Part shown: piece by piece, positions 403 through 35,508 of the stretch
Position numbering within the stretch: the stretch's first letter is position 1
How the letters are laid out: each line of letters begins with the position of its first letter
Virus record (IMG/VR): IMGVR_UViG_3300009537_000034
Coordinates: 1 to 45,080 of that record
Reading direction: 5' to 3' (one strand)
Length of the DNA stretch: 45,080 nt
DNA from: a virus
The notes under the pieces: model-generated
What the model saw: only the letters and a program-made list of their open reading frames with translations
Told to the model about the DNA's origin: nothing
Database searches by the model: none
Position numbers and translations under genes: made by a program

Positions 403-1052
403 TATGTACGCGCGCGGAGTTTTGCACTTTGGCCGGTATATCCAGGGCCAATTTATCAACATACATTGGCCGGGATAAGGTCGTTTTGGCAAATGATGGA
501 AAAACCATCGATACCGAACATGTTATAAACAAGGAATTTTTACAAGGCCGCAAAGAAAAAGGAAAGGGATTAATCGCCAATGAAAACACCCCCTCGAAAC
601 CCGCCACGGGCGGGGCATCCGGCGACCCCCCCGAACCATCCGGTAAAATGTCCGCGGCGGCGAAATCTGAATATGATAAAAAGGTTCTGGAAAAAAAGGA
701 ACTGGAATTAAAAAAGATGCGGGCCGAATTAGATAAAAAGCTAGTCGATACCCGGGTTGCCGAACAAAAATTATCAATATTAAAGGGTAATAATATCCCG
801 CTTGACGTAGTACAATCGATAGTCGCCCAATTTTCAAAGGCAATTATCAATAATTACAAGTCGTTCGCCGAACAACAAATTACTGAGTTTTGCCACAAAC
901 AGGGTATTTCAGAAGAAATTAGAATAAAACACATTTCGGAAAACATAAAAGGTTTGAATTTATTACATAAAAAGGCCGTTCGGGATGCCAAAAAACAAAC
1001 AAAGGCGGCCATCGGTAAGAAACAATTAAATGATGCCGCCACTGATGAATGA
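399..1052 (+). CDS. Small terminase subunit, Nu1-like
   Basis: The 217-residue product has an N-terminal winged-helix-like segment (about residues 5-45: AEFCTLAGISRANLSTYI, then VVLANDGKTID), a proline- and glycine-rich linker (about 60-85), and a long charged coiled-coil-like region (about 85-130) before a helical C-terminus. This matches lambda Nu1, in which a winged helix recognises the cos or pac site and a C-terminal part binds the large subunit. The coding sequence overlaps the large subunit gene directly downstream, as in Nu1-A. The assignment rests on fold pattern and position; sequence similarity to Nu1 is not obvious by eye. Confidence 0.7.
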   Translation: MICTRAEFCTLAGISRANLSTYIGRDKVVLANDGKTIDTEHVINKEFLQGRKEKGKGLIANENTPSKPATGGASGDPPEPSGKMSAAAKSEYDKKVLEKKELELKKMRAELDKKLVDTRVAEQKLSILKGNNIPLDVVQSIVAQFSKAIINNYKSFAEQQITEFCHKQGISEEIRIKHISENIKGLNLLHKKAVRDAKKQTKAAIGKKQLNDAATDE

Positions 1053-3084
1053 TATCGAAATAGACAATCATATAATTGATGAAATTTTTGAGGCGGCCGA
1101 ATTCGAGTTATCCGATATATTGCCCTCAGATTGGGCCGAAAAAAATCGGTTTATGACATCCGAGGTTTCACCAATTGAGGGTCCGTTTTCATTTAAACAT
1201 TCGCCATATACAAAGGAAATATTGGATCAGGTATCACCCACAAGCCCCGCCCGGGTGATTGTCGTTAAAAAGGGCGCCCAGGTTGGTTTTTCAACTAGTG
1301 TAATTGAAAATGCAATAGGTTGGATTATCAGCGAAAACCCCGGTAATGTGTTGTTTTTGGTTGGCCATGATGATTTGATTGAAAAGGCCATGAAAAAAGT
1401 TGATCAAATGTTGGATTCAACTGGTATTAGGCCGTTAATTAAATCAACAGCTAACAGATCTAAAAATAATAAATCGGGTGATAAGGACCGATCAAAGGAA
1501 TTTCCGGGCGGCATGTTATCGTTAGGCATATCAAACCACAAAACGTTGCGCCAACAATCTTTGAAATATGGTTTTATTGATGATTTCGAGGCGATGAAAT
1601 CCAGCACAAAAGAATCCGGCGGAACCGTTCCGATGATTAAACAGCGTTTTGCCGCGTATGCTAAATCATACAAACTATTCGAAATTTCAACCCCCGAGGT
1701 ATTAGAGAATTCAAATATTGAGGGTGAATACTTGAAGGGTGACCAACGTAAATTTCATGTTCCGTGCCCGTGTTGTGGAGAATTCATTGTTTTGTATTGG
1801 GAAATTGACAGCGAAATAAACGCCGGCGAAAAGGCCGGTATATATTGGGAGTTAAACGAATCTGGGCAATTGGATCGTTCATCGGTTGGTTATATTTGCC
1901 AAAAATGCGGTGATTTTTTCAGCGATAAATTTAAACCCGATATGTTATCGAGGGGGTATTGGGTGCCAACCGCCGAACCATTGGATCCAACATATGTTAG
2001 TTATCACATAAATTCATTGTATGCATCGGCATACATGTTTGGTTGGTCGCATTACGCCCAACAATATTTAGACGCCAACCCCCCCGGACAACCCCGTAAA
2101 GAAGATTTACACCAAACGTTTGTAAACCTGGTGTTGGGGGAGCCATACGAAATGCAGGGGGAAACCATCGAGGCCGAATCATTGATGCACAACATACGCC
2201 CATACCAAGTTGGTGTTGTTCCGGAAAAACAATCAATTGCGGATGGTAATGGAAGGATAATAATGCTAACTCTAGGCTCAGATATGAACGGAACGGCAAA
2301 GGATGAAAAGCGCGATTTCGATGATGATGCCCGTTTGGATTGGGAAATTATCGCGTGGTCCGAAACCGGATCATCATATTCTGTTAACCACGGCTCTATT
2401 GGAACGTTCCAACCATCACACATACGCACCAAAAAAGAACATAATCACCCAGACCGGGTTAAATGGACGTACAAACGAGGGGCAAAAAACTGTGTTTGGG
2501 ATGAACTGGATAACATTTTAGGGGTTGAAATACCGGTTGATACCGGCCGTAAAATGCAAGTATTCGCCGCCGGGCTGGATACCGGGCATTTATCGGAATA
2601 TGCATACCCATATATTGAAGCAACCAACCACCGGGTATATGGTGTTAAGGGTGATAAAATGCAAAATACCGGTGTTATAATTGATTCAGATAACAAGCTG
2701 TTTAATATATCAAAAGAAAATGCAAAACTTTGGTTGGTTAACGTCAATCGATATAAGGATATTTTGGCAACGTCCATTGGTCTAAATTGGGATCCACATA
2801 TAACTCCGAGCCAACCAGCTGATTATTTAAATTTCCCAACACCATCAAACGGTAAATATGCCCGGGCAAACTTTTTCGAACATTTCGAATCGGAACATAA
2901 GGTGGTTGAAAAGGGGCGATATATTTGGAAAAAAAGAAGTATACGGCACCAAAACCACCTTTTCGATTGTCGGATTTACGGCATGGCCATAAAGGATATT
3001 ATAGTTTCTTTGATATTGAAGAAATTAAAAATTCAAAACGGAACATGGGGTGATTTTGTTAAGGTTGTAACCAAACAAAAATAG
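1030..3084 (+). CDS. Large terminase subunit, GpA family
   Basis: This 684-residue protein is a GpA-type packaging motor and nuclease. The N-terminal ATPase has a Walker A-like KGAQVGFST at about residues 81-89 and a Walker B-like GFIDDFEA near 178-185. A zinc-knuckle pair follows (CPCCGEF near 244-250; CQKCGDF near 289-295), typical of GpA terminases. The C-terminal nuclease region begins with GSDMNG near residue 417, with further acidic and His residues (LDTGHLSEYAYP). Its length is close to lambda gpA (641). The start overlaps the small subunit gene; ATGs at 1030, 1033 and 1045 are all possible, the last giving an ATGA-type coupling. A terminator follows at once. Confidence 0.93.
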   Translation: MMPPLMNDIEIDNHIIDEIFEAAEFELSDILPSDWAEKNRFMTSEVSPIEGPFSFKHSPYTKEILDQVSPTSPARVIVVKKGAQVGFSTSVIENAIGWIISENPGNVLFLVGHDDLIEKAMKKVDQMLDSTGIRPLIKSTANRSKNNKSGDKDRSKEFPGGMLSLGISNHKTLRQQSLKYGFIDDFEAMKSSTKESGGTVPMIKQRFAAYAKSYKLFEISTPEVLENSNIEGEYLKGDQRKFHVPCPCCGEFIVLYWEIDSEINAGEKAGIYWELNESGQLDRSSVGYICQKCGDFFSDKFKPDMLSRGYWVPTAEPLDPTYVSYHINSLYASAYMFGWSHYAQQYLDANPPGQPRKEDLHQTFVNLVLGEPYEMQGETIEAESLMHNIRPYQVGVVPEKQSIADGNGRIIMLTLGSDMNGTAKDEKRDFDDDARLDWEIIAWSETGSSYSVNHGSIGTFQPSHIRTKKEHNHPDRVKWTYKRGAKNCVWDELDNILGVEIPVDTGRKMQVFAAGLDTGHLSEYAYPYIEATNHRVYGVKGDKMQNTGVIIDSDNKLFNISKENAKLWLVNVNRYKDILATSIGLNWDPHITPSQPADYLNFPTPSNGKYARANFFEHFESEHKVVEKGRYIWKKRSIRHQNHLFDCRIYGMAIKDIIVSLILKKLKIQNGTWGDFVKVVTKQK

Positions 3085-3106
3085 GCCCCGATGGACCTAC
3101 TTTTTT
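3082..3106. terminator. Bidirectional terminator between terminase and the glycan operon
   Basis: A hairpin with stem TAGG-C-CC / GG-A-CCTA (one C/A mismatch, loop CGAT) is followed by six T on the plus strand. On the minus strand the same hairpin is followed by a T-rich tract (TTTTTG). It lies exactly at the terminase stop and 31 bp beyond the end of the convergent operon, so it can stop transcripts from both sides. Confidence 0.65.
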
Positions 3107-3136: not shown

Positions 3137-3922
3137 TTATCGCAATATAGGATTTTCTTTTAAAATCGTTTCGGATAAAACCAATTGCCGGCCCTGGAAA
3201 TAAAAAATTCGATCACCTAATGATGCGTATTTATACTCCTTTGTAAATTGTTCAATTTGTTCTGGGGTCCATCTAATCGATGCGGCCGCATTACGAAACT
3301 TGTTTTCAATGTCTTTTCGGATCATACTATAATGGTGCATTATAATATTGTCCATTGAGAATATCATGTATTTCTTGATGGGTTTTATTTTGGTTGCCGG
3401 ATCATTTCGAAGCGGGTACGGCGCGGCCATGTCAATTTTTGTATCTGGTCCCAACTCACAAATAAATGGCGCATAATAATCTTCTAACGGCCATAGCGCC
3501 CACGTATCATGTTTGTAATACGTTATCATTTCGGTAAATGTGTGGCTGTATTTATTTTGTTCACAGAACGTTTTAGCCCTTTTGAATTGGGCGGTATCAT
3601 AATAATGGTCGCATGCGGCAAATAAAAAGTGTGTACACCCCGATTTGCGCGCGGTATCAATCATTTTATTGTGTTTGTTTGTTTCGTTTTGTTTGGTGTT
3701 AACTATTAAATTCGGTTCGAAGCCAATAATTATAAATTTAGTTGAATCAAATCCATTAATTATTTCGTATATATCATCAATAATTGTTGGGTTTGTTTCG
3801 CCTTTGTTACTGACTTTTTGATAACAAATAACTATATGATCCACATCATTAATGATTTGGTTTATGCTACCAGATAACAACTCTAAACCATTCCAAACCG
3901 AATATAAAACACCTAATTTCAT
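3137..3922 (-). CDS. Putative glycosyltransferase (GT-A-like), last gene of glycan operon
   Basis: The 261-residue product starts with a GT-A-like first strand (MKLGVLYSVWNGLELL) and has a hydrophobic strand leading to an acidic metal-site-like motif (FLFAACDHYYD, about residues 98-108), as in family 2-type glycosyltransferases that use an aspartate motif to hold the nucleotide-sugar metal. Further His/Asp-containing segments follow (IIMHHYSMIRKD). It overlaps the acyltransferase gene by 4 bp (ATGA) and is the most distal gene of the leftward operon. Donor and acceptor sugars cannot be read from the sequence. The fold call is moderate; a transferase role is supported by the company it keeps. 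Confidence 0.6.
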   Translation of the reverse strand: MKLGVLYSVWNGLELLSGSINQIINDVDHIVICYQKVSNKGETNPTIIDDIYEIINGFDSTKFIIIGFEPNLIVNTKQNETNKHNKMIDTARKSGCTHFLFAACDHYYDTAQFKRAKTFCEQNKYSHTFTEMITYYKHDTWALWPLEDYYAPFICELGPDTKIDMAAPYPLRNDPATKIKPIKKYMIFSMDNIIMHHYSMIRKDIENKFRNAAASIRWTPEQIEQFTKEYKYASLGDRIFYFQGRQLVLSETILKENPILR

Positions 3923-4449
3923 CGTTTTCGTAAAAATGATGCCGGGTTTCCAACCACGATTTCATCGGCATTAATATCATTAACGACAACCCCACCCATG
4001 CCAACCAGAGCATTGGGCCCAATTTTGGCTTGATTTCTGATAATAGCCCCTAATTTAATTTGTGCGCCATCGCTGATTTGTGCGTAACCACCAATAATTG
4101 CCCCCGATGATAATTCGATATTATCGCCAATTTTAGCATCGTGCCCAACATGGCAATGGGCCATTATAATGTTGTTGGATCCAATATTGGTTGTTTGGCC
4201 CTCTTCTAATGGCCGTTGAATCGATACAAATTCGGATATAGTGTTATTATCACCAATAACAACTTTACCTTTAAACTCGGTCCAATCTGTATTTCGAATT
4301 TCGCCGTTGCCCCCAATCACCGAATAAGCACCAATAATATTGCCTTTGCCCATTTCAACGTTGGGGTGTATAATTGCCGTTTTGTGTACCTGGTTGCCAT
4401 TGGTATTTATCCAATCATTGTTGTATAGGCCATCAGCTTCATTTTCCAT
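3919..4449 (-). CDS. LpxA-like left-handed beta-helix acyltransferase
   Basis: The 176-residue product is built almost wholly of hexapeptide repeats ([LIV]-G-x-x-x-x) from about residue 25 to 165, the signature of left-handed parallel beta-helix acyltransferases. The central part resembles LpxA: the segment around AHCHVGHDAKIG (97-108) aligns with the LpxA stretch that carries the catalytic His, here His103, and VSIQRP (75-80) resembles the LpxA VTIHRG region. LpxA itself is about 262 residues with a C-terminal helical domain, which is absent here. The enzyme would transfer an acetyl or longer acyl group to an amino or hydroxyl sugar. It overlaps its neighbours by 4 and 11 bp. The acyl donor is unknown. 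Confidence 0.85.
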   Translation of the reverse strand: MENEADGLYNNDWINTNGNQVHKTAIIHPNVEMGKGNIIGAYSVIGGNGEIRNTDWTEFKGKVVIGDNNTISEFVSIQRPLEEGQTTNIGSNNIIMAHCHVGHDAKIGDNIELSSGAIIGGYAQISDGAQIKLGAIIRNQAKIGPNALVGMGGVVVNDINADEIVVGNPASFLRKR

Positions 4450-5794
4450 TCATTACGTTTTTTACCCATTCATCATTCGTTAAATGGGGGTTACTAAATC
4501 CGCGTTTTTTTCCGTTTATTACATCCGGGTGTAATCCGCTTATATCCTTTAAAATCCGTTTGTTATGTAAGTATTCATCTGGTAAAGATAAAACAAAATC
4601 CACAAAATCATTATCCAAAAATGGGTATCTGGTTTCCATTGTAAACGCTCCGCCCATTCGATCCTCAACAATTAAAACCCCCTGTAAAAACCGCCAATTA
4701 TATTCATCGTGTGTAACCCTGGAATAATCCATGGATAATGGCGGGTTTTCTGTTCGTTTTATAACCTGTTCAATTGGCCGGTTGTTTCGATGCGGATACC
4801 CCCCAAAAAGTTCGTCACCCCCCGCCCCAGAGTATAGCACCGTACAAAATTTCGAAGCCAATTTAGTTAATGCATAGTTCGTATAACATGATCCAACTTT
4901 TGGATCGTCTAACACATCAATTGCGGGTTTCAGATATTTATTAAATGTGGCATGATTGCAAATTAACGTGTAATGTTCCGATGTGCTATTTAATTTTATG
5001 TTTTCAATTTCACTGTATTTATCATCGGCGTAATCCACCGAAAAACAATAATCTGGATTCATGTATTTGGCCAGTATTCCGGAATCAATACCCCCAGATA
5101 AAAACACCCCGGTTTTTTGCTCCGTTGCGTTTCGCATAAATGCCATTTGCAAAAGCCCCCCCAAACGAATTCTGGCCGGCAAGTAATCGATTTTTATTTT
5201 ATTGGGGCGAATAAATGGCAGTTTTTTTATTCTAGTTATTCCATTGTAAATGGTGTTATCGGTCATTACCCCCAACGAGTGTTTCCAATCGATTACGGCA
5301 TTTTGATCTAATCCTAAATTCGGAAACATTCTTAATATTCCTTTAACCTCAGAACAAACATAAACAACCCCATCGCGTTCGTATCGATATAGTTGTTTAA
5401 TCCCATATCGATCCGTAAAAAATTTTAGTTCGGTTCCATTGTAGTATGCAACGGCAAAAAAACCGTTTAGTTCATCTAGGCGTTCGCCCTTGAATTTTTC
5501 TAAAAACTTAACCAATAATTCCGCATCACACGTTGTGGTTAATTCAATATCATATTTTATTGCGAGTTCCTTATAATTGGAAATATACCCGTTCAACCAA
5601 GCCTTGAAATCACCACACGTAAATGGCTGTTCATTAACTGTTTGATCAGTAATTTTTAACCAGTTATACCCAACGGCGGCATTATCAAATTCATCAATAT
5701 ATATTTGTGTGCCCCGCGTTTCCGTTGCCATCGCCATGCCCAGCGCATTGCCGCCCGGACAATCGCCCCCGATTACCGCACTAATCCCGCACAT
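4439..5794 (-). CDS. Asparagine-synthetase-like glutamine amidotransferase
   Basis: The 451-residue enzyme carries both AsnB-type domains with key motifs intact. The N-terminal glutaminase begins MCGI (Cys2 nucleophile after Met removal), with Arg27, the oxyanion Asn-Gly (68-69), CDAELL (Asp90) and DRYGIKQLY (128-136). The synthetase domain has the ATP pyrophosphatase loop SGGIDS (233-238) and GAGGDELFGGY (323-333). Family AsnB proteins are about 550 residues, so this is a compact version. It would move ammonia from glutamine to an AMP-activated carboxylate. In polysaccharide loci such enzymes (WbpS-like) amidate uronic acids, and a sugar acid is the better guess here given the glycosyltransferase neighbours. 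It overlaps neighbours by 11 and 14 bp. Confidence 0.93.
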   Translation of the reverse strand: MCGISAVIGGDCPGGNALGMAMATETRGTQIYIDEFDNAAVGYNWLKITDQTVNEQPFTCGDFKAWLNGYISNYKELAIKYDIELTTTCDAELLVKFLEKFKGERLDELNGFFAVAYYNGTELKFFTDRYGIKQLYRYERDGVVYVCSEVKGILRMFPNLGLDQNAVIDWKHSLGVMTDNTIYNGITRIKKLPFIRPNKIKIDYLPARIRLGGLLQMAFMRNATEQKTGVFLSGGIDSGILAKYMNPDYCFSVDYADDKYSEIENIKLNSTSEHYTLICNHATFNKYLKPAIDVLDDPKVGSCYTNYALTKLASKFCTVLYSGAGGDELFGGYPHRNNRPIEQVIKRTENPPLSMDYSRVTHDEYNWRFLQGVLIVEDRMGGAFTMETRYPFLDNDFVDFVLSLPDEYLHNKRILKDISGLHPDVINGKKRGFSNPHLTNDEWVKNVMNGK

Positions 5795-6422
5795 AGTTTA
5801 GTTTTTTTAGTAGTTCAATAAACGTATCGGTGTCGTTGGGTTTTTGTAAGTAGCTGTACGGCGCCGAATCTGGGTTGCGATTTTCAATTTTTGTAAGCGT
5901 GTATTTTTCGTTTTCCGTAGGAAATGCATATTCCGGCACAAACTCAGGATACGCCGAAAACGGGTATTTAATTTCAATGCCGGTTGCCTCGGAAATTTTA
6001 CGTTGTACCAAATCAGGATTTGATATAAGATCCTCGTACTTGATGGTAAGCACAATATACTCAGCGTATTGTTCAGCTTGTAAAATTGAATTCATCCACG
6101 CAAATGGATCATACATCCCCCACGCTTTAACCCAACTTTCGACCACGTGCCGGCCATCCCTAATGCAGTTTATTACCAATATATTGTCCAGTAAATTTAG
6201 GTGTTTTTCAATGTTGCCAGATGCAAGGGTATTACTAAAAATCGTTTTTTCAGTTCTTTTGCCAACGATAAAATCCGCATCAAAATCCGATGTATCCAGT
6301 GTTGTAAAATCCAACAACGAACATTCATCATTAATTATTTGGCACCTATCAAACCCGTAAAACAACCGGGCTAATAATGTGGTTCCGGACCGCGCGCAAC
6401 CGGTGATGTATATTTTTTTCAT
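5781..6422 (-). CDS. PAPS-dependent sulfotransferase
   Basis: The 213-residue product opens with the 5'-phosphosulfate loop of sulfotransferases (ITGCARSGTTLLARLF, residues 6-21) and has the 3'-phosphate motif CIRDGRHVVESW at about 86-97, with Arg88 and Ser96 in the expected places. These two motifs bind PAPS, the sulfate donor. The acceptor is probably a sugar hydroxyl because the gene lies between two glycosyltransferase-like and amidotransferase genes, with overlaps of 14 and 4 bp. The length is at the short end for carbohydrate sulfotransferases but the core is complete. Confidence 0.88.
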   Translation of the reverse strand: MKKIYITGCARSGTTLLARLFYGFDRCQIINDECSLLDFTTLDTSDFDADFIVGKRTEKTIFSNTLASGNIEKHLNLLDNILVINCIRDGRHVVESWVKAWGMYDPFAWMNSILQAEQYAEYIVLTIKYEDLISNPDLVQRKISEATGIEIKYPFSAYPEFVPEYAFPTENEKYTLTKIENRNPDSAPYSYLQKPNDTDTFIELLKKLNYVRD

Positions 6423-7138
6423 GGAAATATGTAATTAAAGTGACCTTCAATTATTTCTGAATCGATAATTACCGTATTATCCCAGAGTTCGAACGGGGTC
6501 ATGTTAATTTCGCTTTTTATATCCAAACCATACAACCCTTCGTTTTTTAGGTTGATTAATTCGGTTGTATAGGGTTGTGCAAGTTTTAGCCGCCTTTGCA
6601 TAGATGTATCTAATAAATGGCTATATTCATTGGTCCAAACCAACCAATCCATTTTTTTTAAAAGCTGTTTACTTAGGCACCTCCCAGCCCCACATAAATG
6701 CCCCTTTCGGTAATCTTCACGGTATCCACCCCAATATGATGCGCGTTTTGATACGACATTGTAAAAATAAAAATCAACGGTACCAAAATAATCAACCCCT
6801 TTATGCATCAATTCAATGTATCGTTCCATTAGGCCGAGCCCAATAATATCATCAGATCCAACACATAAAACATAATCCGCATCAATATCCCGAGCCATAA
6901 ACATGGTGGATTGCATTTTGGCCGCCAATGGCTGGTTTGGTATGTTGATATAATGAAACCCATGTTTTTCAACCAGTTCTTTGGATTTATTGCCCTCACT
7001 ACCGGCAACAATTGTAACTAATTCCGCCCCTTTTATGTTCTTTTCTAGGTGTTTAATGCCCTTTGCAAACATTTCAAAAACATCATGCCGCAACCAAACA
7101 CCGGTAATTATCGCAATTTTCAATCTTTTGTTTTTCAT
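6419..7138 (-). CDS. Family 2-like glycosyltransferase
   Basis: The 239-residue product has a GT-A-type N-terminus (LKIAIITGVWLRHDVFEMF) and a nucleotide-sugar motif DADYVLCVGSDDIIG (about residues 84-98), where SDD stands in place of the DXD metal site. The later CGAGRCLSKQLL (about 149-160) resembles the acceptor-side segment of GT2 enzymes. Both ends overlap neighbouring genes by 4 bp, so it is translationally coupled in the operon. The sugar donor is unknown. Confidence 0.78.
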   Translation of the reverse strand: MKNKRLKIAIITGVWLRHDVFEMFAKGIKHLEKNIKGAELVTIVAGSEGNKSKELVEKHGFHYINIPNQPLAAKMQSTMFMARDIDADYVLCVGSDDIIGLGLMERYIELMHKGVDYFGTVDFYFYNVVSKRASYWGGYREDYRKGHLCGAGRCLSKQLLKKMDWLVWTNEYSHLLDTSMQRRLKLAQPYTTELINLKNEGLYGLDIKSEINMTPFELWDNTVIIDSEIIEGHFNYIFP

Positions 7139-7821
7139 TGGGCAATGTGTTTTTCAAAGTCTTGTTTAATTTCTTTATGCATCGATTGATAAAAAAGAAA
7201 CGAATCAAGGTCGACCGTATTTTTTAAAAACTCTAAGTTTGTATCTGGGGTTCGGTACCGCTCCAATTTTGAATCATGGTATGCCCCACCAGTTTTTCCA
7301 ACATTATGTTTCATTCCTATTGAAATTATTTTTTTCGGCTGAAATGTAACACCGGTTTTTTCAAATTGTTGCCAAAGGTGTGCGTCTAAATACGGGTCGT
7401 TGTCTTTTGGGTATACAATTTCTAACCCTGGTTTAATTAATGTATTCATCGCCGATGCACGGCGAGGGTGAATCAATTGTTTGTATCGTGCCAAACCTAT
7501 ATGGTAATAATATGTGTAACCCGTACCAAACAACGGTGGTTCACCGTGTTGGCGCCATGCTTTGATCATTTCAGTTAAATAATTTGGCGCGTACCAATCA
7601 TCGTTTTCCATGAAAAATATGAGTTCAAACCCCCGTTGTGTAAAATACTCATACCCCTTTTTGTATCTGGGCGTAATATCACACTCATCATTAACAGATT
7701 TATAATCAACAAAATATACTTCCATAAACCCATCCAGATCCATGTTTAATATCATGTGTTGGCAATGCTTTTTAAATTTTGGCCGGTCGCCCCGATCAGG
7801 AATAACGATACCAATTTTCAT
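7135..7821 (-). CDS. Family 2-like glycosyltransferase, first gene of glycan operon
   Basis: The 228-residue product starts MKIGIVIPDRGDRPKF, a typical GT-A first strand, and carries FELIFFMENDDWYAPNYL (roughly residues 64-82), where ENDDW matches the E/D-N-DDW metal and donor motif of GT2 enzymes. A longer open frame reaches 7860, but the promoter element at 7839-7846 lies inside that extension and the extra 13 residues do not fit the family, so the start at 7821 is preferred. It overlaps the next gene by 4 bp. Confidence 0.8.
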   Translation of the reverse strand: MKIGIVIPDRGDRPKFKKHCQHMILNMDLDGFMEVYFVDYKSVNDECDITPRYKKGYEYFTQRGFELIFFMENDDWYAPNYLTEMIKAWRQHGEPPLFGTGYTYYYHIGLARYKQLIHPRRASAMNTLIKPGLEIVYPKDNDPYLDAHLWQQFEKTGVTFQPKKIISIGMKHNVGKTGGAYHDSKLERYRTPDTNLEFLKNTVDLDSFLFYQSMHKEIKQDFEKHIAQ

Positions 7822-7838
7822 TTTCGATTTGTTTGATT

Positions 7839-7846
7839 CAAAAGTA
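7839..7846 (-). promoter_or_regulatory. Promoter -7 element of the leftward glycan operon
   Basis: On the minus strand this reads TACTTTTG, a perfect TAnnTTTG. The expected transcription start is near 7832, leaving a leader of about ten bases before the ATG at 7821. A clear -33 TTTG at the right spacing is not seen, so the promoter may depend on an activator or on the hairpin elements upstream. Confidence 0.5.
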
Positions 7847-7885
7847 AATAAAAATTGCAAACTGAATTAACTGGGTTTTTTGCGA

Positions 7886-8022
7886 GTTTCCGGTGTCGGA
7901 AATACACCAACAACCCTATTACCGTTATAAACAATTCATTGTTAATATAGCTAGTTATGAACAATTTTAAATATACCCTGAATAATTATTAACCGCTTTT
8001 ACTGGGTTTCCGGTGTCGGAAA
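7886..8022. repeat. Duplicated hairpin GTTTCCGGTGTCGGAAA in the divergent control region
   Basis: GTTTCCGGTGTCGGAAA occurs at 7886-7902 and again at 8006-8022, exactly 120 bp apart. Each copy is an inverted repeat (TTTCCG, loop GTGT, CGGAAA). In the second copy the arms extend to ACTG-x-GTTTCCG / CGGAAAC-x-CAGT with one mismatch (8001-8028). Neither is followed by a T tract in the rightward direction, so operator or RNA structure is more likely than a terminator. A further palindrome, AACAAT-TC-ATTGTT, lies between them at 7930-7943. This non-coding region (7822-8242) separates the glycan operon from the tail operon. Confidence 0.7.
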
Positions 8023-8080
8023 CTCAGTTATAAGTGAATTAATGTTGTTAATAACGCTTTATTGGTGGTTATAAATCCAC

Positions 8081-8105
8081 AAACTAAACTAAACTAAACT
8101 ATACT
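8081..8105 (+). repeat. Tandem AAACT pentamer repeat
   Basis: Four perfect AAACT units at 8081-8100 are followed by one imperfect unit (ATACT). It lies in the intergenic region between the second hairpin and the late-promoter-like element. Such short tandem repeats can change length and so alter promoter spacing; no function can be read directly. Confidence 0.8.
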
Positions 8106-8157
8106 AGAGTAAAATAAATTGCGAATGAGTTTTAATTTTTAGTCTATGTTTGTTATC

Positions 8158-8208
8158 AAAAAAAAACGGGGAAAATAAAAAAAAGCAACCCACGACTTTT
8201 TATTTTTG
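8158..8208 (+). promoter_or_regulatory. Late-type promoter of the tail operon, copy 1 of a shared 23-bp element
   Basis: A 23-bp element (nine A, then CGGGGAAAATAAAA; 8158-8180) is followed after exactly 20 bp by TATTTTTG (8201-8208), a perfect TAnnTTTG. The same 23 bp, with the same 20-bp gap to a near-consensus -7, occurs at 21574-21624 before the prohead protease. No normal -33 TTG is present, so the element may replace it. The sheath gene starts at 8243. Confidence 0.65.
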
Positions 8209-8242
8209 AAGTCAGCAATATAAAATTAAAGCGCAAAATATT

Positions 8243-9757
8243 ATGGGATCAAACGCGGTAAGTCTCGAGTTAATTTCAAAAGTTACAGGGTATTTAATTT
8301 CAAAGGGAAATTTTAATACAGTAACACAAAATTTACCCCAATCTATTGCGATAATTGGCGAAGTAAACGAAGCGTTCCAAGGGTCCGTTACTTTTGATGA
8401 AGGGTATGAAATACTTTCAGCACAAGAGGCCGGCGAAACTTTTGGTTTCGGTTCACCCATACATATGGCAATGAGAATTTTGCGCCCGGTTTCGGGTTCT
8501 GGTGTATCAGGTATTCCAACAATTGTTTACCCACAGGAAAAAGCGGCCGGCGCAACCGAAAATATTTTGGAAATTGTTGCAACCGGTGTTGCAACCGCCA
8601 ACGTAACACATACATTAGTAGTTGCGGGCCGTACTGGATTAGATGGTGTATCATATGATTTTACTGTTAATACTGGTGATACGGCCGCGGAAATTCACGC
8701 AAAAATTGAGGATGCACTAAATAACGTTTTAGGATGTCCATTTAGCGCGGTATCAACTGATTATGAATGTACGGCAACATCTAAATGGGCCGGTTTAACA
8801 GCTGATGATTTAGATATAACTGTACAAACTAATAGTAATGCGGCGGGCATAACATATGCCGTTGCACAAACACAAGCCGGTGCCGGTACCCCATCCGTTG
8901 CCACATCGTTGGCGGCCTTTGGAAGTACGTGGCATACAGTTGTTTTAAATACATATGGTACCGTTACATCAGTAATGGATGCGTTGGAATCAACTAATGG
9001 AATACCGGACCCATCAACACCAACGGGGCGTTATTCAACTACCACAATGAAACCGTTTTTCGCGTTTACTGGTTCAGTTGCGGATGATCCATCATCGATT
9101 ACAGACACACGCCTGGATGATGTAACAATAGCAATATGCCCGGCACCATTATCTGATGGGCACCCATTAGAGGCGGCCGCAAATTGCGCGTTATTATATT
9201 GTCCACAAGCACAAAACGAACCACATACAGATATTTCCGGTAAGTATTTCCCAGACATGCCAACACCAACATCGATTGGCTCAATGGATACTTATTTAAA
9301 CCGCGATGCAATTGTTAAAAAAGGTTGCAGTACCGTTGAATTGTCATCTGGAAAATACCGTATGATGGATTTTGTAACTACTTATCATAAGGTTGGCGAA
9401 AACCCGCCACAATTCAGGTACGTAAGAAGTTTGACACAGGATTTAAACATATTTTACCAATATTATCTATTGGAACAAATTCACGTTGTTGATAAGGCAT
9501 TAGCGAACGATACCGATACGATATCGGTGAGCAACGTTATTAAGCCAAAACAATGGAAACAAATTTTATTCCAATTGGCTGATCAATTAGCCGCAAAAAG
9601 TTTAATCGCCGATACGCAATTTATGAAGGATAGTATTGCGGTAAATATTGGCGCATCGAATCCAGATAGATTCGAAACATCATTTCAATACAAACGTTCT
9701 GGTTTTGCGCGTGTTGCATCGACAACTGCCCAGGCTGGATTTAATTTTAGTAATTAA
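8243..9757 (+). CDS. Contractile tail sheath protein
   Basis: The 504-residue protein resembles Mu gpL-type sheath proteins: an N-terminal segment (LPQSIAIIGE, about 30-39), an inserted Thr/Ala-rich beta domain (about 100-230), and a conserved C-terminal core ending in a strand-rich tail (DRFETSFQYKRSGFARVASTTAQAGFNF). The C-terminal arm would link neighbouring subunits in the contractile tube. It is the first gene of the tail operon, directly before the tube gene, the order found in myophages. The start at 8243 follows an A-rich leader and the promoter at 8201. Confidence 0.85.
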   Translation: MGSNAVSLELISKVTGYLISKGNFNTVTQNLPQSIAIIGEVNEAFQGSVTFDEGYEILSAQEAGETFGFGSPIHMAMRILRPVSGSGVSGIPTIVYPQEKAAGATENILEIVATGVATANVTHTLVVAGRTGLDGVSYDFTVNTGDTAAEIHAKIEDALNNVLGCPFSAVSTDYECTATSKWAGLTADDLDITVQTNSNAAGITYAVAQTQAGAGTPSVATSLAAFGSTWHTVVLNTYGTVTSVMDALESTNGIPDPSTPTGRYSTTTMKPFFAFTGSVADDPSSITDTRLDDVTIAICPAPLSDGHPLEAAANCALLYCPQAQNEPHTDISGKYFPDMPTPTSIGSMDTYLNRDAIVKKGCSTVELSSGKYRMMDFVTTYHKVGENPPQFRYVRSLTQDLNIFYQYYLLEQIHVVDKALANDTDTISVSNVIKPKQWKQILFQLADQLAAKSLIADTQFMKDSIAVNIGASNPDRFETSFQYKRSGFARVASTTAQAGFNFSN

Positions 9758-34171: not shown

Positions 34172-34733
34172 AGAACTGGAAAACGAACGGTTCCGCCAAA
34201 TAAAAAAGTTCGGCGAACAAAATATACCGTGTTTGGATCCAGTATTGTTAAACCGTGAAAATTCATGTACTCCCGAACGTATGTGTGAAGAGTATGGTAT
34301 ATTATCGCCCCAATCAGCCCAAACCCGATGTGATTCGGCATTTAAGTCTGGCAACGGAACGTATGCCCATATATTGATTGAAGAGGTTGCCGAGGCTATC
34401 GGCGAATTCGACCCGGTAAAACGCCGCGCCGAATTAATACAGGTTGCGGCCGTTGCAATTGGTTGGATCCAAAAAATAGACCGGTTGGCCGAGGCTGAAA
34501 CATTAGATATTACAAACCGTGATTATTGGTTAAAACGGGTTCATGTAATTGCCATTAAAAACGAAATGATACAATCTGATGATGAGGTAAGCCCAACCAT
34601 GAATGATATCGAACATCTTTTTAAACTCGAGAATATGATGGGTTACTTTTTGGACAATATGAGCCCCGCCGAGGCATTAACAAAGGAAATAATACGTTTA
34701 AAAAATCCAGTTGGCCATGGCGGAAAACAGTAA
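34149..34733 (+). CDS. MazG-like/DUF550-type phage protein
   Basis: The ATG at 34149 gives 194 residues. The N-terminal FKELENERFRQIKKFGEQN, CEEYGILSPQSAQTRCDSAFKSGNGTYAHILIEEVAEAIGEFDPVKRRAELIQVAAVAIGWIQKID (about 45-112) contains E-E-V-A-E-A with a following R-x-E-L, the helical metal-binding pattern of MazG-type nucleotide pyrophosphohydrolases. Members may cleave (d)NTPs to monophosphates. It overlaps both neighbours by 23 and 17 bp. Confidence 0.62.
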   Translation: MKRMHIFKELENERFRQIKKFGEQNIPCLDPVLLNRENSCTPERMCEEYGILSPQSAQTRCDSAFKSGNGTYAHILIEEVAEAIGEFDPVKRRAELIQVAAVAIGWIQKIDRLAEAETLDITNRDYWLKRVHVIAIKNEMIQSDDEVSPTMNDIEHLFKLENMMGYFLDNMSPAEALTKEIIRLKNPVGHGGKQ

Positions 34734-35508
34734 AATAGAATGGACCGATCACACCGTTAATTTATGGTGGGGGTGTGCAAAGGTGCATACAGGATGCAAA
34801 AACTGTTATGCCGAATACCTTTCAGATACGAGATATAAAAACGATTTATGGGGTGAAAACGCCCCCAGAAAACGCATTAAATCGGCGTTCAAAGATCTAA
34901 ATAAGTATCAAAGACAAGCCCGCGCCGAGGGGCGTAAAATTCGGGTATTCGTTGGTTCTATGATGGATATATTCGAGCCATCGAAACCATTGATAAATCC
35001 AATTGAGGGTTTCGAAACCACCGGCGATATCAGAAGAGAATTTTTCAATCAAATTGATATGGGGCTATTTCCGGACCTGGTATTTTTATTGTTGACCAAA
35101 CGCCCGGAAAATATAAATAAACACATTCCGCTGGATTGGCCATTTACCAACGTATGGTTTGGTACGTCAATATCAGATAATGATACAGCATACACAGCGT
35201 TGCGCCATTTAATAATGGAAACGCCGATGTTTTCGAATTTGTTTTTATCAATAGAGCCCCAAACCGGCCCCATTAATTTAAGGTCATCACAACATATTAT
35301 GGGTCGTATAGGTTGGATTATTCAGGGCGGCGAATCAGGCCATAAAAAAAGGCCGTTCAATATTGAATGGGCTGAATCCATGAAAGACCAATGTAAATTA
35401 CTCGGGATACCTTATTTTTTTAAACAAATCGACAAAGTACAACCGATTCCGGACCACTTAAAGATTCGAGAATTGCCGAACTTTTTCAATTCCGTAACAC
35501 TTAAATAA
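34717..35508 (+). CDS. DUF5131 (phage Gp37/Gp68-like) protein
   Basis: The ATG at 34717 gives 263 residues. The signature IEWTDHTVNLWWGCAKVHTGCKNCYAEYLS (about 7-36) has a C-x5-C-x2-C cluster that recalls radical-SAM-like iron-sulfur sites, and the middle has FLLLTKRPENINKHIP and NVWFGTSI, followed by WIIQGGESGHKKRPF. This family is widespread in phages and its biochemical role is not known to me. It overlaps the MazG-like gene by 17 bp. Confidence 0.82.
   Translation: MAENSKIEWTDHTVNLWWGCAKVHTGCKNCYAEYLSDTRYKNDLWGENAPRKRIKSAFKDLNKYQRQARAEGRKIRVFVGSMMDIFEPSKPLINPIEGFETTGDIRREFFNQIDMGLFPDLVFLLLTKRPENINKHIPLDWPFTNVWFGTSISDNDTAYTALRHLIMETPMFSNLFLSIEPQTGPINLRSSQHIMGRIGWIIQGGESGHKKRPFNIEWAESMKDQCKLLGIPYFFKQIDKVQPIPDHLKIRELPNFFNSVTLK

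Follow-up and report, generated by a model that had tools for sequence, protein, structure and literature searches.

A cassette of six genes lying between the TerL and tail sheath genes of a phage probably encodes a self-contained cytoplasmic system for virion glycosylation, in which one glycosyltransferase (GT1) would target a single sheath residue, Tyr174, and the remaining enzymes would extend and decorate the sugar. It also seems reasonably likely, from sequence comparisons among related phages, that GT1 represents a phage-specific GT-A family for O-glycosylation of a single tyrosine exposed on the outside of the sheath, and that phages trade tailoring modules at a fixed locus, thereby altering the glycan coat of the tail. 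The window considered here, 45,080 bases long, is one whole virus record.

The initial annotation placed six overlapping leftward glycan-modification genes at 3137-7821, and all six open reading frames are found there on the minus strand, intact and with adjacent frames overlapping by 4-14 bp. In order from the TerL end, they encode GT6 (3137-3922), a GT-A-fold glycosyltransferase with relatives elsewhere, including in Lak megaphages; LPX (3919-4449), a left-handed beta-helix (hexapeptide) acyl/acetyltransferase with HxGHD catalytic histidines; ASN (4439-5794), an asparagine-synthase-like glutamine amidotransferase with intact Cys2, SGGIDS, and GGDE; ST (5781-6422), a PAPS-type sulfotransferase with the P-loop GCARSGTTLL and an IRDGRHVVES motif; GT2 (6419-7138), a GT-A-fold glycosyltransferase with an invariant GSDD motif; and GT1 (7135-7821), a GT-A glycosyltransferase with an ENDDWY (DxD-type) motif and the proposed initiating transferase on Tyr174. 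TerL (1030-3084) flanks the cassette and is convergent with GT6; a hairpin with T-runs (3077-3104), possibly a bidirectional terminator, separates the two gene ends. The opposite flank is the tail sheath gene on the plus strand (8243-9757; PHROG 165 tail sheath, E 8.5e-82), whose product is the proposed glycan acceptor; the TAT codon of Tyr174, the proposed glycosylation site within the external sheath extension domain, is at 8762-8764 of the plus strand.

A divergent non-coding gap of 420 bp (7822-8242) lies between GT1 and the sheath gene and is predicted to hold promoters for both directions. The promoter first ascribed to the cassette itself was not substantiated: sigma-70-like matches exceed shuffled sequence by just ~2 sd, and a search for the Bacteroidota promoter pattern found no site in the gap or near the cassette. 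The gap also contains two exact copies (7887-7902 and 8007-8022) of the 16-nt hairpin palindrome TTTCCGGTGTCGGAAA, of which 0.06 copies would be expected by chance in the window and which is absent from 216 loci compared; the pair is possibly a regulatory or recombination site.

Profile and structure comparisons agree with most of the enzyme families first proposed. ST matches Pfam Sulfotransfer_3 (E 1.8e-8) and has both the 5'-PSB loop and the 3'-PB motif of PAPS-dependent sulfotransferases. ASN matches the Asn_synthase (3.1e-33) and GATase_7 (2.2e-16) profiles and has the N-terminal Cys nucleophile and the SGGxDS ATP-pyrophosphatase motif, as befits the glutamine-dependent amidotransferase first described; its score is under the asnB equivalog cut-off, so no substrate is assigned. 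The description of LPX as LpxA-like needs narrowing. Its hexapeptide fold is recognized (Hexapep 2.6e-20; LpxA-like 6.7e-31) and its HVGHD aligns with HIGHD of LpxA, preserving the catalytic histidine of the beta-helix, but the 176-aa protein is without the C-terminal helical domain of LpxA and scores 107 against an NCBIfam LpxA cut-off of 226; because the usual C-terminal domain is missing, LpxA itself is a less likely identity for LPX than a sugar O-/N-acyltransferase or acetyltransferase.

The cassette encodes three GT-A glycosyltransferases, where two clear and one probable had been counted from the letters. GT1 has a weak Glycos_transf_2 match (0.0028), and a 15-member GT1 profile matches the PDB glycosyltransferase 3bcv at 4e-4. 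Neither GT2 nor GT6 has a family match by profile; their AlphaFold models (mean pLDDT 91.9 and 89.9, respectively) have best Foldseek matches to GT-A glycosyltransferases (E 9e-10 for GT2 and 1.5e-8 for GT6). The early impression that the active sites are intact is borne out among relatives, which keep the E-x-D-D signature of GT1 (E72/D74/D75 invariant in an alignment of 15 relatives), G-S-D-D of GT2, Cys2/SGGxDS/GGDE of ASN, the HxGHD histidines of LPX, and the P-loop and RDGR motifs of ST; in GT6 the DxD motif keeps its last Asp, the first being Ala in the subgroup to which this GT6 belongs.

Relatives were collected by scanning IMG/VR with TerL, GT1, and GT6 alignments, which gave ~200 loci; alignments were required, single-protein scans of viral contigs with ASN or TerL having found zero close relatives. 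Described phages gave zero matches to GT1, GT2, or ST, and only Lak megaphages matched GT6 (28%). From these loci 48 distinct TerL-to-sheath intervals were extracted, 47 of them syntenic; six are empty (74-558 bp) and 41 hold a cassette, and these frequencies are not population estimates since part of the set was collected via GT1 or GT6. GT1 is present in all 41 non-empty intervals, and a scan with TerL only likewise found it in every cassette having both flanks. Type A, to which the window belongs, accounts for 15 intervals, all with GT1, GT2, LPX, and GT6 and ten with ASN; type B (18 intervals) combines GT1 and GT6 with extra GT-A families, which FkbM or other methyltransferase-like genes accompany in most cases. 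Three intervals are of type C and five are of other kinds, two of the latter having GT1 alone.

Mapped on a TerL tree of 44 tips, cassette type has switched at least 18 times and orientation three times; the bodies exchanged are of the amide/acyl/sulfate type found in the window and the methyltransferase type. The TerL-sheath junction is thus an insertion hotspot, where the site stays constant and its contents are exchanged. A second cassette site, between hub- and portal-side genes, occurs in four loci (L073, L109, L128, and L244), and unrelated phages also carry cassettes among their head and tail genes. The six-gene combination singled out at first holds as a cassette type, which recurs, and not as an exact set, which is one variant: ST is found in only one other cassette, that of phage contig L141, where it is 38% identical and retains both motifs.

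Several natural gene fusions indicate that the enzymes belong to one pathway: ASN-LPX, a single 664-aa open reading frame at 3605-5599 of L015 and present also in L110; GT1-GT2 (L150 and L170); and GT2-LPX (L146). The ASN-LPX fusion further suggests that these two enzymes act on the same substrate. The cassette genes are under purifying selection (dN/dS 0.05-0.23, comparable to TerL and the sheath gene), and orthologous cassettes, intact and syntenic, are carried by many phages, in keeping with the initial view that the cassette is probably functional. Decayed or disrupted genes are rejected by the same frames and dN/dS values. Also rejected are an assembly chimera, given the syntenic cassettes of related contigs, and a fragment of a host capsule or O-antigen locus at an assembly junction, as the junction and gene order of the window recur in L055 and further contigs. 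The cassette genes are nearly phage-exclusive; among 84,980 species of cellular genomes GT1 has eight matches, of which the four close ones are phage sequences.

The candidate acceptor emerged when structural proteins of cassette-bearing and cassette-free phages were compared for residues that differ. In the discovery set, residue 174 of the sheath is Tyr in every cassette-bearing phage, while the surrounding loop positions vary freely; most cassette-free phages, and Flavobacterium phage FCL-2, have N, D, A, A, or G there. Further sheaths, collected with patterns that excluded residue 174, brought the total to 89 distinct sheaths. Of the distinct sheaths, 52/52 have Tyr174 where the phage carries GT1 and 0/17 where it does not, three short-contig cases being set aside; with these ambiguous fragments counted against the association, the figures are 52/52 and 3/20 (Fisher p 8e-14). 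The column ranks first among 10,060 column tests (runner-up 2e-6), and in contigs outside the discovery set Tyr174 occurs in 13/13 sheaths with GT1 and 2/15 without (p 2.8e-6). Relatedness among the phages limits the number of independent comparisons: three well-supported independent pairs are available, all concordant (p 0.25), and the unsupported best tree gives six.

All 52 loops from GT1-bearing phages are exactly 17 residues long with Tyr at position 9, and their neighboring positions have entropies of 1.5-2.7 bits; loops from GT1-lacking phages are 17-20 residues long, without Tyr at position 9. Tyr174 aligns to Gly156 of gp20 of phage Milano, within an extension domain (residues 91-203) described as external (PMC10811340), and by this alignment the hypervariable loop with Tyr174 is predicted to belong to the external sheath domain. 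A single invariant Tyr in such a loop resembles an acceptor. Among the sheath columns ranked next for association with GT1, most (113, 116, 140, 148, and 152) likewise lie in the external domain, within window residues 109-175, hinting at a broader co-adaptation of the sheath surface.

Tyr174 tracks GT1 and not GT6, as it is retained in L027 and L074, which have GT1 only, and in type-C phages without GT6. Five sheaths have Tyr174 next to an empty cassette site. Two of these are on long contigs (L244 and L252); in both, searching the entire record located GT1 at a second location ~10 kb away, as Tyr174 had correctly predicted, and simple linkage to a neighboring cassette therefore does not explain the residue. 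The three others are on fragments (L026, L254, and L263) whose 5-9 kb do not include GT1, and two of these are close sisters of L252. L273 keeps Tyr174 with a partial cassette (GT2 and ASN) in which GT1 is not seen and may lie in the missing part; in this type-A cassette (L273:1-3159), a 94-aa hydrophobic open reading frame occupies the place of GT1 beside the sheath gene. Some GT1/GT6 cassettes occur in phages without a recognized relative of the window sheath, and the target there must differ.

In the proposed mechanism, GT1 would transfer the first sugar directly to the hydroxyl of sheath Tyr174, and GT2 and GT6 would extend the chain, presumably in subsequent steps. Decoration in the window phage could then comprise a uronamide formed by ASN, an acyl or acetyl ester or amide added by LPX, and a sulfate added by ST. 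The many copies of the sheath protein would present the glycan all around the tail. The window cassette has no recognized gene for nucleotide-sugar synthesis, so donor sugars must be supplied by the host. Masking of the virion, altered adsorption or surface contacts, or protection of the tail may be the benefit, and the frequent swapping of modules suggests pressure for variety, that is, diversifying selection on the glycan.

Of the candidate roles first listed, decoration of the virion, specifically of the tail sheath, is favored by the GT1-Tyr174 association, and remodeling of the host surface is less supported. In the latter case the cassette, in infected cells or lysogens, would alter the capsule or the LPS O-antigen of the host and so keep competing phages from adsorbing, the cytoplasmic transferases modifying lipid-linked precursors prior to export by host flippases. 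O-antigens are typically amidated, acylated, and sulfated, the usual minus-strand orientation of the cassette is moron-like, and the glycosyltransferases of Gratiaviridae have been interpreted in this way (PMC8008677). The island is found in many uncultivated phages related to phages of Bacteroidota, and one relative is a prophage integrated, together with a tyrosine integrase, next to tRNA-Lys in a Bacteroidota MAG (chromosomal contig of 94 kb). However, an integrase is present in only 6/37 virus records, is missing from most long ones, and was not found in the window (the record may lack ends); because phages both with and without an integrase carry the cassette, it is not tied to lysogeny. 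Membrane proteins are, moreover, nearly absent, only 4/264 proteins of recurring clusters having a hydrophobic segment; a flippase, a polymerase, and a lipid-primed initiating enzyme are all missing from the recurring cassette proteins, and export genes do not accompany the soluble enzymes of these clusters. Host-surface remodeling, which also leaves the tight tie of GT1 to one sheath residue unexplained, is considered unlikely.

Serotype-conversion cassettes of the gtr/oac kind, found in temperate phages, combine a membrane flippase with bactoprenol-linked transferases. The island resembles them in being a phage-borne set of glycosyltransferase and acyltransferase modules that varies between phages, but its proteins are soluble and an integrase is not seen in most of its phages. 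Classical gtr serotype conversion is rejected: no recurring membrane protein is present in the cassettes, hydrophobic segments are rare and as a rule absent from the cassette families of the window, and neither a GtrA flippase nor a membrane GtrB was found. Jumbo cyanophages and Gratiaviridae have polysaccharide-modification clusters whose proposed target is the host surface (PMC7824862; PMC8008677). These likewise have variable sets of glycosyltransferases, those of Gratiaviridae between portal and capsid genes; their gene sets differ from that of the island and come without a predicted acceptor.

Glycosylation of phage virions is known from few examples. In mycobacteriophages (Freeman et al., 2023, cited in PMC12619734), capsid and tail tube subunits reportedly carry glycans at their C-termini. 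Phage glycosyltransferases modify structural virion proteins there, as is proposed here; the predicted acceptor of the island is instead a Tyr internal to the contractile sheath protein, and the island adds enzymes for amidation, acylation, sulfation, or methylation in exchangeable modules. The mycobacteriophage example also lends weight to decoration of a different virion protein (capsid, tube, or fiber), Tyr174 being merely correlated, for instance by accommodating or binding the glycan. Against this, no residue comparable to Tyr174 was found in the tube, TerL, tape measure, or baseplate proteins (best 5e-5), and Tyr174, invariant within its variable external loop, has the look of an acceptor, so that this alternative is quite improbable. 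A screen of g10216 for GT1-associated residues found none.

That the cassette glycosylates phage DNA, protecting hypermodified cytosine or thymine against restriction, is very improbable indeed: many phage glycosyltransferases have such a role and one window protein has a partial C5-methyltransferase match, but relatives of thymidylate synthase/hydroxymethylase occur in 0/31 cassette-bearing records and a TET/JBP dioxygenase in 1/31 and not in the window, Tyr174 is left unexplained, and DNA hypermodification is rejected, as a source of hydroxylated bases was not found. The sole TET/JBP match is in the L083 record (G019:C1:42029-42391). DNA glycosylation, like host-surface remodeling, is thus less supported than sheath glycosylation.

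Autonomous glycosylation of virion proteins by virus-encoded enzymes is established in chloroviruses and mimiviruses (PMC4691112), which also combine glycosyltransferases with tailoring enzymes in gene sets that differ among close relatives; these are giant viruses of eukaryotes that make their own nucleotide sugars and have no sheath target, and an amidotransferase/sulfotransferase cassette was not noted for them. FCL-2 (Ficleduovirus) is the nearest described phage, with similar virion genes (TerL 38%, sheath 48%); unlike in the window, its TerL gene is followed by head genes, with no cassette or GT1, and its sheath residue 174 is Gly. In the literature searched, no glycosylated contractile sheath, sheath tyrosine target, or module-swapping tailoring island was found. 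If sheath glycosylation is correct, a widespread group of uncultivated phages bears an antigen-like, swappable tail glycan coat whose acceptor residue is predicted, direct tests of the modification and of its purpose become feasible, and the group would be a source of unexplored phage glycosyltransferases, possibly including protein-tyrosine glycosyltransferases.

Two further observations concern genes outside the cassette. Prevotella phage Lak-C1 (L003) encodes at 6178-8073 a 631-aa protein (TAG read as Q) with a GT6-related N-terminal part (28%) followed by a second domain. In the window, a DUF5131 protein (34711-35508; E 1.6e-46) is encoded in the early-side gene block of the phage.
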